Positions 5,034 to 24,393 of a DNA stretch of 64,000 nt are shown piece by piece. Origin of the DNA: Rhodohalobacter mucosus. GTDB taxonomy: Bacteria; Bacteroidota; Rhodothermia; Balneolales; Balneolaceae. How positions within the stretch are numbered: position 1 is the stretch's first letter; each line of letters opens with the position of its first letter. Below the pieces are notes generated by a model. That model was not told where the DNA came from. It did not search any database and saw only the letters and a program-made list of their open reading frames with translations. Made by a program: the position numbers and the translations under genes. Where the stretch lies: positions 248,001-312,000 of the forward strand of contig NZ_QGGB01000003.1 of the NCBI RefSeq assembly GCF_003150675.1. Reading direction: 5' to 3'.

Positions 5034-6146
5034 ATGATTATTGGAGTTCCAAAAGAGATAAAAACACATGAAAACCGTATTTCACTGCAGCCCGGGGGCG
5101 TGCTTCAGCTAAACCGAAACGGTCATGAGGTATTGGTTGAAAAAGGCGCCGGTGCTGGAAGCGGTTTCACGGATGAGATGTATGTTGAGCGCGGGGCAAC
5201 CATTGTTGAGGATGTTGAGGAGATCTGGCAAAAGGCGGATATGATTATGAAGGTGAAAGAGCCTATTGCAGAGGAGTATCCGCGCATGAGAGAGGGACAG
5301 ATCATCTTTACCTATTTTCACTTTGCGGCCAGCCGGGTGCTTACAGAAGCCGTGGTTAAGTCCAAATGCATTGCCATTGCCTATGAAACGGTTGAGAAGA
5401 AGGACGGTTCACTGCCACTATTGGTGCCAATGAGTGAAGTTGCGGGTCGTATGGCGGCCCAGGAAGGGGCTAAGTACCTGGAGAAGGCAACAGGCGGGCG
5501 CGGTGTACTGATGGGTGGTATTCCCGGAGTACCGCCGGCCAATGTGCTGGTTCTGGGCGGTGGCATCGTGGGTGTCAACGCAGCCAAGATCGCGGCCGGA
5601 ATGGGTGCCAACACCACCATTCTGGATATCAATATTCCAAAATTGCGTTATCTGGATGACGTGATGCCTAAAAACGTTCGAACGCTTTACTCAACCGAGG
5701 GGGCAATACGGAATCTTCTGCCAACTACCGATTTGATTATTGGTGCGGTTCTGATTCCGGGTGCCAAGGCCCCAAGTCTCATTCGACGCGATATGTTGAG
5801 AGAGATGCGTCCGGGTACCGTGATGGTTGACGTAGCCATCGACCAGGGAGGCTGCTTTGAAACATCGAAACCAACCACACACGCCGACCCCATTTACGTC
5901 ATTGATGAGGTGGTACACTACTGTGTGGCCAACATGCCCGGAGCGGTTCCCTACACGTCAACGCTGGGTCTTACCAACGTCACCCTGCCGTATGCGGTCC
6001 AGATTGCCAACAAAGGGTGGAAAGAGGCGCTTGCAGACGATCCGGAGCTGAAAATGGGACTCAATATTGCCGACGGCAGGATTGTGTACGAGGATGTGGC
6101 CTCCGCATTTGATATGGATTATACGCCCATTGAGGATGTGATGTAA
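5034..6146 (+). CDS. ald: alanine dehydrogenase
   Basis: NAD-dependent L-alanine dehydrogenase (pyruvate + NH3 + NADH to L-alanine), 370 residues, the family's normal length. The N-terminus is diagnostic (MIIGVPKEIKTHENRISL). The substrate-site lysine lies in KVKEP (about residue 74) and the histidine in YFHFAA (about residue 95). A Rossmann NAD site is seen at about 173-182 (VLVLGGGIVGVNAAK). The C-terminus contains the typical NMPGAVPYTSTLGLTNVTLPY. It is a single gene with no partner in the same direction. The first rho-independent terminator downstream is at 6307-6334. Confidence 0.96.
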   Translation: MIIGVPKEIKTHENRISLQPGGVLQLNRNGHEVLVEKGAGAGSGFTDEMYVERGATIVEDVEEIWQKADMIMKVKEPIAEEYPRMREGQIIFTYFHFAASRVLTEAVVKSKCIAIAYETVEKKDGSLPLLVPMSEVAGRMAAQEGAKYLEKATGGRGVLMGGIPGVPPANVLVLGGGIVGVNAAKIAAGMGANTTILDINIPKLRYLDDVMPKNVRTLYSTEGAIRNLLPTTDLIIGAVLIPGAKAPSLIRRDMLREMRPGTVMVDVAIDQGGCFETSKPTTHADPIYVIDEVVHYCVANMPGAVPYTSTLGLTNVTLPYAVQIANKGWKEALADDPELKMGLNIADGRIVYEDVASAFDMDYTPIEDVM

Positions 6147-8620: not shown

Positions 8621-9958
8621 ATGAAAAATCATCGAATATTCTTTTGGGCAATTACCTCCGCTTTGGGCGGATTCCTGTTCGGCTTCGATACGGCCGTTAT
8701 CTCAGGTGGTGAACAGAATATACAGCTCATGTGGCAACTGAGCGATATCATGACCGGTCAGATGGTAGCCATGGCGCTTTATGGTACAATTATCGGGGCG
8801 ATATTCGGCGGAGTGCCTGCCCAGAAATTCGGCAGGAAATTGTCTCTGATAGGTATTGCAGCACTCTTTCTTGTTTCCGCAGCGGGTTCAGCACTGGCTC
8901 CCGAAATCTATTCGCTGATGTTTTTCCGGTTTATCGGCGGGCTCAGCATCGGGGCTTCCTCCGTGGTTGCACCGATGTACATATCGGAAATTGCCCCCGC
9001 TGAGCAGAGAGGCAAGCTCACTGCGATGTTTCAGTTCAATATCGTGCTCGGCATTCTGATCGCCTATTTCTCCAATTATCTGATTGGCTCCGGAGATGTA
9101 GAATCCTGGCGCTGGATGCTGGGAGTGGAAGTGATACCCGCCACGCTGTTCCTGGTGATGGTATTTACGCTTCCCGAGAGTCCGCGCTGGCTCATCGTTG
9201 CCAAAAACAGGGTGGAAGAAGCACGAAAAACCCTTGCCATCATCAATCCCGACACGGTGGAAGAGTCGGTGCGTTCCATTCGCGAAAGTGATACCCATCC
9301 GGGGAGGGCCGCAAAAATCAGCGAGTTTTTTACAAAGCGATACAGTTTTCCCATTATCCTGGCATTTCTCTTTGCTTTTTTCAACCAGGTGTCCGGCATC
9401 AATGCGATCATTTACTTTGCCCCCAGGATCTTTGACCTGACCGGCATGGGTGCGGACGCGGCCCTGCTCTCCAGCGTTGGAGTTGGGGTAGTCAACCTGG
9501 TTTTTACCATGCTAGGGCTTTTGCTGATTGACAGGTTTGGCAGGCGTTTTCTGATGTATATCGGGTCTTTTGGATATATTATATCGCTGTCGGCGATTTC
9601 CTGGGCCTTTTTTACAGAGACATTTACAGGGCTGCTGGTGCCATCGCTGATCTTTCTCTTTATCGCATCGCACGCCATAGGGCAGGGCGCCGTGATTTGG
9701 GTGTTCATCTCCGAAATCTTCCCCAATGCGGTGCGTTCATTCGGAAATTCGCTTGGCAGCAGCACGCACTGGGTCTTTGCAGCTTTGATTGCGGGTAATT
9801 TTGTCTATATCGAAAGCCTGTTTGGCGGCGGACCCATATTTGCCTTTTTTGCCTTTATGATGTTTCTGCAGCTGCTGTTTGTATGGAAAGTGATGCCGGA
9901 AACAAAAAATGTATCCCTGGAAGAGATGGAGGAGAAGCTGGGGATAAGAAACGGGTGA
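8621..9958 (+). CDS. MFS sugar porter (probable fructose/hexose transporter)
   Basis: A 445-residue twelve-helix transporter of the sugar porter family. Signatures: GFLFGFDTAVISG in helix 1, GRK after helix 2 (AQKFGRKLS), PESPRWL after helix 6, FNQVSGINAIIYFAP in helix 7, DRFGRR between helices 8 and 9, and PETKNVSLEEME at the C-terminus. These residues mark proton-coupled or facilitated monosaccharide uptake. It follows the GH32 gene by 20 bases and is very likely co-transcribed with it. Together they suggest extracellular fructan cleavage followed by fructose import. The substrate is inferred from the neighbour only. Confidence 0.93.
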   Translation: MKNHRIFFWAITSALGGFLFGFDTAVISGGEQNIQLMWQLSDIMTGQMVAMALYGTIIGAIFGGVPAQKFGRKLSLIGIAALFLVSAAGSALAPEIYSLMFFRFIGGLSIGASSVVAPMYISEIAPAEQRGKLTAMFQFNIVLGILIAYFSNYLIGSGDVESWRWMLGVEVIPATLFLVMVFTLPESPRWLIVAKNRVEEARKTLAIINPDTVEESVRSIRESDTHPGRAAKISEFFTKRYSFPIILAFLFAFFNQVSGINAIIYFAPRIFDLTGMGADAALLSSVGVGVVNLVFTMLGLLLIDRFGRRFLMYIGSFGYIISLSAISWAFFTETFTGLLVPSLIFLFIASHAIGQGAVIWVFISEIFPNAVRSFGNSLGSSTHWVFAALIAGNFVYIESLFGGGPIFAFFAFMMFLQLLFVWKVMPETKNVSLEEMEEKLGIRNG

Positions 9959-9992
9959 ACGGGAAAACAGATTAACAGACGAACATCCAACC

Positions 9993-10029
9993 GAGCTCCG
10001 GGCCGTAGGGGATTCTCACAATGTGAAAC
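9993..10029. repeat. 37-base direct repeat, left copy
   Basis: GAGCTCCGGGCCG followed by ATTCTCAC and GTGAAAC matches 10929-10965 with a few substitutions. It contains a short inverted repeat (TCAC/GTGA). The two copies bracket the two large repeat units between them. Confidence 0.7.
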
Positions 10030-10036
10030 AGAATAA

Positions 10037-10466
10037 TCGATCATTCGAACAACCGATCAACTAACCAACCGAACGACCGGCCAGATGAGTAATCAACAGC
10101 TAAACAGCGCATTTTAATGCTGATTGATGAAATGTGATATGCACCCTTAGAAATATAATTTGATGGCACATGGTTTGGACCGCTTAATCCCTGCAGCTTC
10201 CCGTAACGCCAGAGGCGTTAAATATCATTAGCCCGGTGCGAAGCGTCGGGTTGTATGAAGGCCGCAATTTGAACCCCGAGGCGGGATGTTAATCAACGCC
10301 CAGATGCAGCTCGAGGGGCAATTGGCAGCAACGTGCAGAGGCTGGCTCGGATCCCGGAATTGTCTGCAACCTCCGGAATTCATTTTGCAATTTTTCAACG
10401 ATCCAGCCCGGAGGTCGGGCCTTTGGCGCCCTTTGGGCTACCGATCATATGTTCCTCCGGAACATA
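10037..10466. repeat. large intergenic repeat, copy 1 (with period-8 lead-in)
   Basis: About 430 bases closely similar to 10471-10920. It begins with five 8-base units (such as CCGATCAA and CTAACCAA, 10037-10076). It is rich in short palindromes, including TAACGCCAGAGGCGTTA (10204-10220), GCCCGG/TCGGGC, and CCCGAGGCGGG. I recall similar GGCGTTA/AGCCC-type interspersed palindromic elements from other Bacteroidota-group genomes. No transposase is nearby. A short open frame inside (10286-10498) looks spurious because the other copy does not preserve it. Confidence 0.85.
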
Positions 10467-10470
10467 GCAA

Positions 10471-10920
10471 TCGATCAACCGTGCAACCGATCAACTAACC
10501 AACCGAACGACCGGCCAGTTGAGTATTCAACAGCTAAACAGCGTATTTTAATGCTGATTGATGATATGCGATATGCACTCTTAGAAGTATAATTTGATGG
10601 TAGATGGTTTTGACCGCTTAATCCCTGTGGCCTGTAGCTAGATGCCTGCAGCTTCTCGTAACGCCAGAGGCGTTAAATATCATTAGCCCGGTGCGAAGCG
10701 CGACGTTGCATGAAGGCCGCGAATTGAACCCCGAGGCGGGATGTTAATCAACGCCCAGATGCAGGTCGAGGGGTATTTGGCAGCAACGTGCAGGGGCTGA
10801 CACGGATCCGTGAATTGCCTGCAACCTCCGGAATTTATTTTGCGATTTTTCAACGATCCAGCCCGAAGGTCGGGCCTTTGGCGCCCTTTGGGCTACCGAT
10901 CAAATGTTCATCCGCAACAT
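10471..10920. repeat. large intergenic repeat, copy 2
   Basis: This is the second copy of the unit at 10037-10466. The offset between copies is 434 bases at the left end and 455 bases from the TAACGCC palindrome onward (10659-10675). The difference of exactly 21 bases comes from three extra 7-base units at 10624-10651 (CCTGTGG, CCTGTAG, CTAGATG, CCTGCAG, where copy 1 has only the last). The palindrome CACGGATCCGTG is perfect here but degraded in copy 1. No protein-coding signal is seen. Confidence 0.85.
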
Positions 10921-10928
10921 GGAGAACA

Positions 10929-10965
10929 GAGCTCCGGGCCGAAGATGATTCTCACGAAGTGAAAC
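10929..10965. repeat. 37-base direct repeat, right copy
   Basis: This is the match to 9993-10029 (GAGCTCCGGGCCG, then ATTCTCAC, GTGAAAC). With the left copy it frames the duplicated block, as if the whole block arose by duplication or insertion between two copies. Confidence 0.68.
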
Positions 10966-11020: not shown

Positions 11021-11055
11021 TCACTTTTCATTTCTCACTTTTGCCTTTTGCCTCA
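11021..11055. repeat. period-7 array (five units)
   Basis: Five consecutive 7-base units: TCACTTT, TCATTTC, TCACTTT, TGCCTTT, TGCCTCA. Nearly the same order of units recurs at 13341-13375. It lies between the large repeat block and the end of the DUF2207 gene. Confidence 0.65.
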
Positions 11056-11090: not shown

Positions 11091-12872
11091 TCATCCCGCA
11101 CCGCTCGAGGCGCCGCCGCCGGCTGAACCCATGGATGCACCCGTTCCTCCAACCGACCCGGTATAGCTGGACCCGCCGGTGGCCGCCAATGAAGAAATTG
11201 ATTGCGATATGCTTGCCGGGGATGAAGTTGAACCTGAATAGAGAATTATCCAGGGGAGATACATCGATATCAACGAATCATCTGCAGACTGTAGCAGATT
11301 TTCGATCTGTTTCGGGCTGAGCCCGAATGCTGTGGCATAGATAAAATGCCGGTCGAGCATATCCATTCGGATCGTGCGTTTATCTGCATTTTGGAGTCCT
11401 TTTTTATAGGCTATCCAGCGTTTATACATTGCCTGGCCCTCTTCCGTTCTGCGTTTGATTAAGAATGACATGGGCAGCATCACTCCGGAAACAATAAGTG
11501 CGGCAAGTGCTATATCTGCCTCATAAAATAACAGATAGACAGAGGCCGCCACCAGAATAGCCTGGAGAAAAATATTCAACAAAACACCTTTTGTACTTTC
11601 CTGGTCAATCCAGTTATGGCCGTCATACACTTTACGAATCTCTTTTTTCCAGTCACTGAACCACTTGTTAACTTTAGTCGGGCTTTCACTAAACAGCTTT
11701 TTGATGGTTACAGAACCGAACCGGATTCGGTCATCCACAAAGCGATAGACCATCATTTCCCATTCGGCGAGATCGCGGCTTTTTTCGGGATCCTGTTCTT
11801 TATCTGTCCGTTCAATGAGGAATTCGGAATCTGATGTTGAAAAAATGCCTTTTTTCTCACTTTCTTTTTCTCTGATTTTAAAATACCCTCTCCTTGACAG
11901 ATCAAAAATGGTAGCCAATATATGGCCCTGAGTGGTAATACTGTTGCTCAGGAGCTTTCCGACAAGGGCCGGGGGTGTTTGATCCGGAAGCATCACGGTT
12001 TCTCGTTCACTGATGAAATTGGTTTTAAACCTTTTTCCGTATCGGTTATACAGCAGAACAAAAAAGAGGATACTGAATACGATAATCAATGCCGTTACGG
12101 GCCGTGCTACGGAATTTATCCACTCCTGATATTCCGCACGTTCCCTTAACCTGGATTCGCGTTCCTGTTCCTCTCTGATTACATTTGCAAGAGTCAGTTC
12201 CGGTTCATTCAATCTCACATTACCGTCATCAAACAGTACACGCGGAAAAAGGAACCGGAAACGGGCAGACTGATTTCTGGAAATTCTATTTGTGTTGATG
12301 GTTATGAGCCCGTCAGGCGACTTTGTGGTCATATGGTCCGGTTCCAGCCTGTCCCATACATACATGGAATCGGGTGAAACGGGCGAGGGAAGGGAGACCT
12401 CGAGTGTGAAGTTTTCGGTTGACCTGTTGCGCCCGGACGCAAGATAATTCCAGAAAAATTCAACCCACTCTTCCCCGACAATCAGGGCCCCTTTCAGGTC
12501 ATACGATATCGAAAATGTTCTGGATGTGTCCTCGGCTGCATAATGCCACTTGATTATTATTCTGCTGTCAGACTCCGAAACGCTAAAGGTACCTGGCTGC
12601 TCAGAATTGTCATTTCTGTATGACTCAGGCCCTTCAGAAACCCTGATATTTGTAATGGAGTCAAAGCCACTTCTTGAAAAGCGGTGATCTGCCCAGCTGA
12701 ATGACCCCTCAAATACATACGTGAGATGCTCTGTGATTCGTACGGTACCGTCTTCAAGCAAAACGGTTTCTATACGAATTTCCGGAATGCTGTAATCGTT
12801 GGCTTCCGCAGATCGATACAGCAAAACTGAAAATAACATGACCAATGCCGGGAAGAGAATGTATCTCCGCAT
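11091..12872 (-). CDS. DUF2207 domain membrane protein
   Basis: A 593-residue envelope protein of the DUF2207 family, whose function is unknown. It has an N-terminal signal peptide (ILFPALVMLFSVLL, cleaved after ...SAEAN). An extracytoplasmic DUF2207 beta domain covers about 28-240 (ETVLLEDGTVRITEHLTYVFEGSF). A membrane helix lies near 257-275 (ALIIVFSILFFVLLY). A cytoplasmic region contains a LPDQTPPALVGKLL phrase typical of the family, and two further membrane helices lie near 430-475. The C-terminal 35 residues are almost all Gly, Ser, Thr and Ala, a low-complexity tail common in this family. It is a single gene with no partner on its strand. Confidence 0.85.
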   Translation of the reverse strand: MRRYILFPALVMLFSVLLYRSAEANDYSIPEIRIETVLLEDGTVRITEHLTYVFEGSFSWADHRFSRSGFDSITNIRVSEGPESYRNDNSEQPGTFSVSESDSRIIIKWHYAAEDTSRTFSISYDLKGALIVGEEWVEFFWNYLASGRNRSTENFTLEVSLPSPVSPDSMYVWDRLEPDHMTTKSPDGLITINTNRISRNQSARFRFLFPRVLFDDGNVRLNEPELTLANVIREEQERESRLRERAEYQEWINSVARPVTALIIVFSILFFVLLYNRYGKRFKTNFISERETVMLPDQTPPALVGKLLSNSITTQGHILATIFDLSRRGYFKIREKESEKKGIFSTSDSEFLIERTDKEQDPEKSRDLAEWEMMVYRFVDDRIRFGSVTIKKLFSESPTKVNKWFSDWKKEIRKVYDGHNWIDQESTKGVLLNIFLQAILVAASVYLLFYEADIALAALIVSGVMLPMSFLIKRRTEEGQAMYKRWIAYKKGLQNADKRTIRMDMLDRHFIYATAFGLSPKQIENLLQSADDSLISMYLPWIILYSGSTSSPASISQSISSLAATGGSSYTGSVGGTGASMGSAGGGASSGAG

Positions 12873-24330: not shown

Positions 24331-24393
24331 GTCGTGAGTCTTTAGAAATTAATTTCCATTCTATAGACTCACGACTCACGACTCACGACTAAA
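24331..24393. repeat. hairpin and period-7 array between trpE and trpS
   Basis: GTCGTGAGTCT (24331-24341) is the reverse complement of AGACTCACGAC (24365-24375), and TAGAA/TTCTA extends the stem past one mismatch. The right arm opens into 7-base units: GACTCAC three times (24366-24386), then GACTAAA. The array ends 4 bases before the trpS ATG at 24398. Confidence 0.75.

Follow-up and report, generated by a model that had tools for sequence, protein, structure and literature searches.

A 21-nt difference between tandem copies of an intergenic repeat in Rhodohalobacter mucosus is consistent with whole-unit slippage in a heptanucleotide array

Repeats with 7-nt units form the most abundant class of simple repeats in most of the genomes surveyed by Mrazek et al. 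(2007), who proposed polymerase slippage with a footprint of ~7 nt to account for such heptads (both points as summarized in PMC4692102 and PMC4679880). The preference of bacterial simple repeats for seven bases is unexplained. The closest described systems are the STRR heptanucleotides of Calothrix, the GGGGA(C/T)T repeats of Nostoc, the GGGAATC repeats of Xanthomonas (PMC4692102), and the TAACTGA repeats of Beggiatoaceae, reported in some Bacteroidetes too (PMC4679880). A genome that combines many heptad words with duplicated intergenic elements provides an internal record of step sizes. Here we describe such a case from a 64,000-nt stretch of R. mucosus DNA, which we call the window.

The locus consists of two copies of a non-coding repeat, ~440 nt each, that lie side by side within a 1132-nt intergenic space between convergent genes (Table 1). 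No Rfam match was found for the intergenic region, and a plasmid search returned no match. The closest named relatives of the flanking transporter are from Balneolaceae metagenome assemblies (82–85% identity), and the isolate names of these relatives suggest a soda-lake habitat of the host. In transporter relatives with 74–85% identity the downstream sequence is different and the element is absent; in other members of the genus the locus was not found. The same intergenic region holds a second heptad array (TTTTCAC/TTTTGCC) at window positions 11024–11053. In addition, sequence similar to a 30-nt GCTCCGAGCCGAAGGCGATTCCCACGAAGT-like module brackets the focal pair (window 9991–10025 and 10927–10962). 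This module, seen in L114 at about 5382–5411, shows clean presence or absence between paralogues; together with the bracketing sequence, this suggests mosaic assembly from small modules.

Table 1. Positions of the features in the window.
Feature	Position	Strand	Evidence
Upstream gene, sugar-transporter-like MFS protein, converging on the repeat	8621..9958	+	named from sequence
Intergenic repeat, tandem duplicate 1 (copy 1)	10027..10465	+	pairwise alignment
CCTGCAG, sole unit remaining in copy 1; putative deletion scar	10190..10196	+	
Three-hairpin dispersed core, copy 1	10205..10315	+	paired columns co-vary; >20 genomic copies
Intergenic repeat, tandem duplicate 2 (copy 2)	10461..10920	+	pairwise alignment
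21-nt block in copy 2 only: CCTGTGG CCTGTAG CTAGATG	10624..10644	+	alignment
CCTGCAG, fourth unit, common to both copies (copy 2 position)	10645..10651	+	
Three-hairpin dispersed core, copy 2	10660..10770	+	paired columns co-vary; >20 genomic copies
Downstream ORF, 593 aa predicted membrane protein	11091..12872	-	

Alignment and direct count gave 40 substitutions between the copies over 439 aligned positions (9.1%); the only indel measures exactly 21 nt. The offset between the copies is 434 through ...CTTAATC (10189/10623) and 455 from CCTGCAG (10190/10645) on. Both values and the change of 21 agree with the original prediction, but the shift, for which the TAACGCC palindrome had been given as the landmark, sits 14 nt 5' of it (10204/10659). 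Around the indel, copy 1 reads AATC-CCTGCAG-CTTCCCG-TAACGCC and copy 2 reads AATC-CCTGTGG-CCTGTAG-CTAGATG-CCTGCAG-CTTCTCG-TAACGCC, so that the extra bases before the common CCTGCAG are exactly those predicted. The CCTG common to both edges leaves the position of the gap free over 4 nt. The prediction that the copies differ by exactly three 7-base units holds for the length of the indel and for its phase, but the third unit is weak: CTAGATG matches the neighbouring units at 3/7 positions and is not convincingly a CCTGNNN unit, though its length and phase fit. With this weak unit included, the lag-7 identity of the focal 28-mer is 12/21 (6/7, 3/7, 3/7), a score reached by ~0.5% of window positions, and the array falls below the threshold of Tandem Repeats Finder. 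The 5' flank of the indel site is present in the genome only in the two focal copies, and therefore this point cannot be compared in other copies.

The first two extra units, CCTGTGG and CCTGTAG, clearly belong to a word family found throughout the genome. The CCTGTRG doublet (CCTGTRGCCTGTRG) has 48 matches in the 3.9-Mb genome, compared with none for the reversed control, and the arrays span from two to more than ten units; CCTGNNN triplets number 321, against 70. The analysis covered the complete contig C3 (449 kb) and targeted stretches, ~850 kb in all. Seven is the dominant array period in C3, which contained 37 segments at lag 7, nine at lag 8, and 0–3 at any other lag divisible by neither 7 nor 8; a Markov simulation yielded no lag-7 segments. 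Its noncoding DNA shows an excess of matches at lags 7, 14, and 21. Tandem Repeats Finder returned heptads of many different words, and the sample as a whole contains 73 heptad word families with the period as the sole feature in common. TG/CA is over-represented in the array words (0.89 vs. 0.72 expected, z 3.6); a universal NNTGNNN rule would be too strong, as 8 of the 73 words are without TG/CA. Of 42 arrays, 41 are located between long ORFs. Convergent regions hold 14 arrays compared with 7.2 expected by length, and divergent ones hold 5 of the 41 intergenic arrays compared with 10 expected. In two congeners, 140 kb from each contained one and zero lag-7 segments, and across the family CCTG arrays have a patchy distribution (31/92 genomes); the abundance of heptads is therefore lineage-specific. 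We found no literature on tandem repeats in Balneolaceae.

Several individual arrays deserve mention. In long arrays of L119 (contig C10; 11050–11145, 11450–11545, and 11850–11935), GATGGAC-type heptads run into CCTGNNN-type ones, by eye apparently with the 7-nt phase kept. A GACTCAC array at window positions 24366–24390 lies directly 5' of a gene with a tryptophanyl-tRNA synthetase-like start and has an inverted GTCGTGAGTC ~40 nt upstream. Two perfect arrays of CCCTGAA (C3:230799–230931 and C2:315791–315923) have the same length, 133 nt, and CCTGAAG arrays are found at contig ends of the G000 assembly, namely the end of C1 and the start of C2. Long perfect arrays look assembly-limited, and the true arrays may be longer.

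Changes of array length were analyzed in alignments of paralogues from these ~850 kb, with indel scans filtered by their flanks in place of a permissive scan that was too noisy. With 25-nt flanks of at least 84% identity, the indels in heptad context were of 14, 14, and 28 nt. With 18-nt flanks of 72% identity, 11 of 16 heptad-context indels of at least 4 nt were multiples of seven (P about 1e-6 against 1/7), although array context biases the alignment toward such lengths and the count is partly favoured by gaps in register; elsewhere, the same held for 10 of 40. When anchors outside the arrays were required, there remained one clean heptad case, of 7 nt, and one composite or messy case, of 29 nt, while three of four octad cases changed by steps of 8. 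Two members of a trio of hairpin-element copies on C6 differ by exactly 7 nt in the array immediately 5' of the same palindrome; in the third, a 1-nt step is combined with an inserted module, and hence non-unit changes also happen. A perfect gained block in L114 comprises four identical GGGCACA units. The claim that the period-7 process adds or removes whole units in otherwise common sequence thus draws support from independent paralogue pairs, namely the C6 trio and the indels of 14, 14, and 28 nt, and from the 11 of 16, with modest numbers and few strictly anchored cases.

The steps seen in octad contexts included 8 and 16. The step thus follows the unit length, as octad arrays change by 8 or 16. 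Arrays of the TCGGTTGC/TTTCTCTG type with such steps are at C3:12291–12384, 205420–205535, and 231784–231831, and in L114 at 13921 and 5610; several arrays of this type adjoin the ATGTTCCGGAGGAACAT palindrome.

From the indel, its phase, the CCTG microhomology, the period-7 arrays, and the other whole-unit indels, we infer that the difference probably arose through ordinary slippage by whole units within a degenerate heptanucleotide array, with copy 1 the likely loser of three heptads between CCTG words. The site would be a short CCTGNNN-class array with a dispersed hairpin element immediately 3' of it. Array and element would have been duplicated in tandem as one block, with ~9% divergence since, and three whole heptads would have changed in one copy after or during this duplication. 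In the likeliest course of events, slippage of the growing strand, or recombination of strands, took place between two CCTG words spaced by exactly three units (those of CCTGTGG and CCTGCAG) and removed 21 nt from copy 1, which would leave the single CCTGCAG. The 21-base difference would then make visible a single step in the gain and loss of whole units behind the unusual frequency of seven-base repeats in this genome. As to direction, 7 of the 21 positions of the extra units differ from CCTGCAG, compared with ~4.5% change in each lineage since the duplication (P about 2e-5). Judged by divergence alone, a heterogeneous array that predated the duplication and was shortened in copy 1 seems likelier than gain in copy 2, because divergence among the extra units far exceeds that of the duplication. 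No orthologous locus or outgroup was found in another genome. Loss of MutS is ruled out as the cause, since MutS is present. As loops larger than ~4 nt are missed by MutS-dependent repair, slips of 7 nt would be able to persist.

It is unlikely that copy 2 instead gained three units after the duplication, whether through slippage or as a copy of some other array. Blocks of perfect units acquired at other loci, such as that in L114, resemble the focal difference and speak for a gain; against it, the extra units are heterogeneous, and the focal 28-mer occurs nowhere else in the genome even with up to three mismatches allowed. It is rather doubtful, too, that an ordinary microhomology deletion at CCTG removed 21 nt by chance, with no period-7 process involved. 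One random length in seven is divisible by 7, the third unit is weak, and multiples of seven, 21 included, also occur among the indels outside heptad context; yet both breakpoints fall in CCTG heptads that are in phase and belong to a word family with arrays at many loci, and the steps in sister cases are of whole units. An assembly artefact is barely credible. The apparent assembly limits of the long perfect CCCTGAA and CCTGAAG arrays give it some ground, but the focal array is 28 nt long and heterogeneous, and its two copies are told apart by their 40 substitutions.

We consider it very improbable that copy number is under selection, with the heptads putatively bound by a DNA- or RNA-binding protein and expression tuned by how many of them there are. 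The excess of TG/CA in array words and the regulatory role proposed for TAACTGA repeats (PMC4679880) agree with this idea. However, many unrelated words with the period alone in common speak against a binding site of one protein and favour a process that responds to the length of the unit, arrays are enriched in convergent and depleted in divergent regions, and the focal array itself lies between convergent genes. That the step is 7 in heptads and 8 in octads likewise favours whole-unit slippage over a one-protein site. A period-specific process that builds arrays, with period 7 and secondarily 8, is a tentative possibility; it would act on dozens of unrelated words and hold the phase where one word gives way to another, and duplicated intergenic repeats would thus preserve its steps.

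The dispersed hairpin core next to the array, seen also in L003–L028, is intergenic and is without an Rfam match. Among 21 copies, five pairs are altered on both sides, i.e. carry compensatory changes. If it were a REP element mobilised by RAYT, the core would be expected to flank a RAYT gene. Y1_Tnp matches exist in the genome, but the two genes inspected (RAYT-like; C3:9870–10214 and 403588–405036) are bordered by palindromes of their own or by ~267-nt repeats, which differ from the focal element.

Like the long simple-sequence heptanucleotide repeats of prokaryotes, head-to-tail 7-nt units here exceed chance genome-wide, and their length changes by whole units, albeit with few strictly anchored cases. 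Unlike the repeats described by Mrazek et al., they comprise many unrelated words in one Balneolaceae genome and show unit-wise change between paralogues. The Calothrix and Nostoc repeats are similarly intergenic tandem heptads with degenerate variants, but here the words and the phylum are different (CCTGNNN, Balneolaceae) and the arrays are mostly not of the G4 type. The Xanthomonas repeats are also degenerate heptads with conserved core positions, and vary widely in length among related genomes; they have a single G-rich word (PMC4692102), compared with ~73 in our sample. The Beggiatoaceae repeats are, again, direct and intergenic, with one word just 5' of start codons (PMC4679880), whereas here the words are many and the arrays favour convergent regions. 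The focal array belongs with these known heptameric simple-sequence repeats of Nostoc and Calothrix, Xanthomonas, and Beggiatoaceae, and the phenomenon is thus one known from other bacteria.
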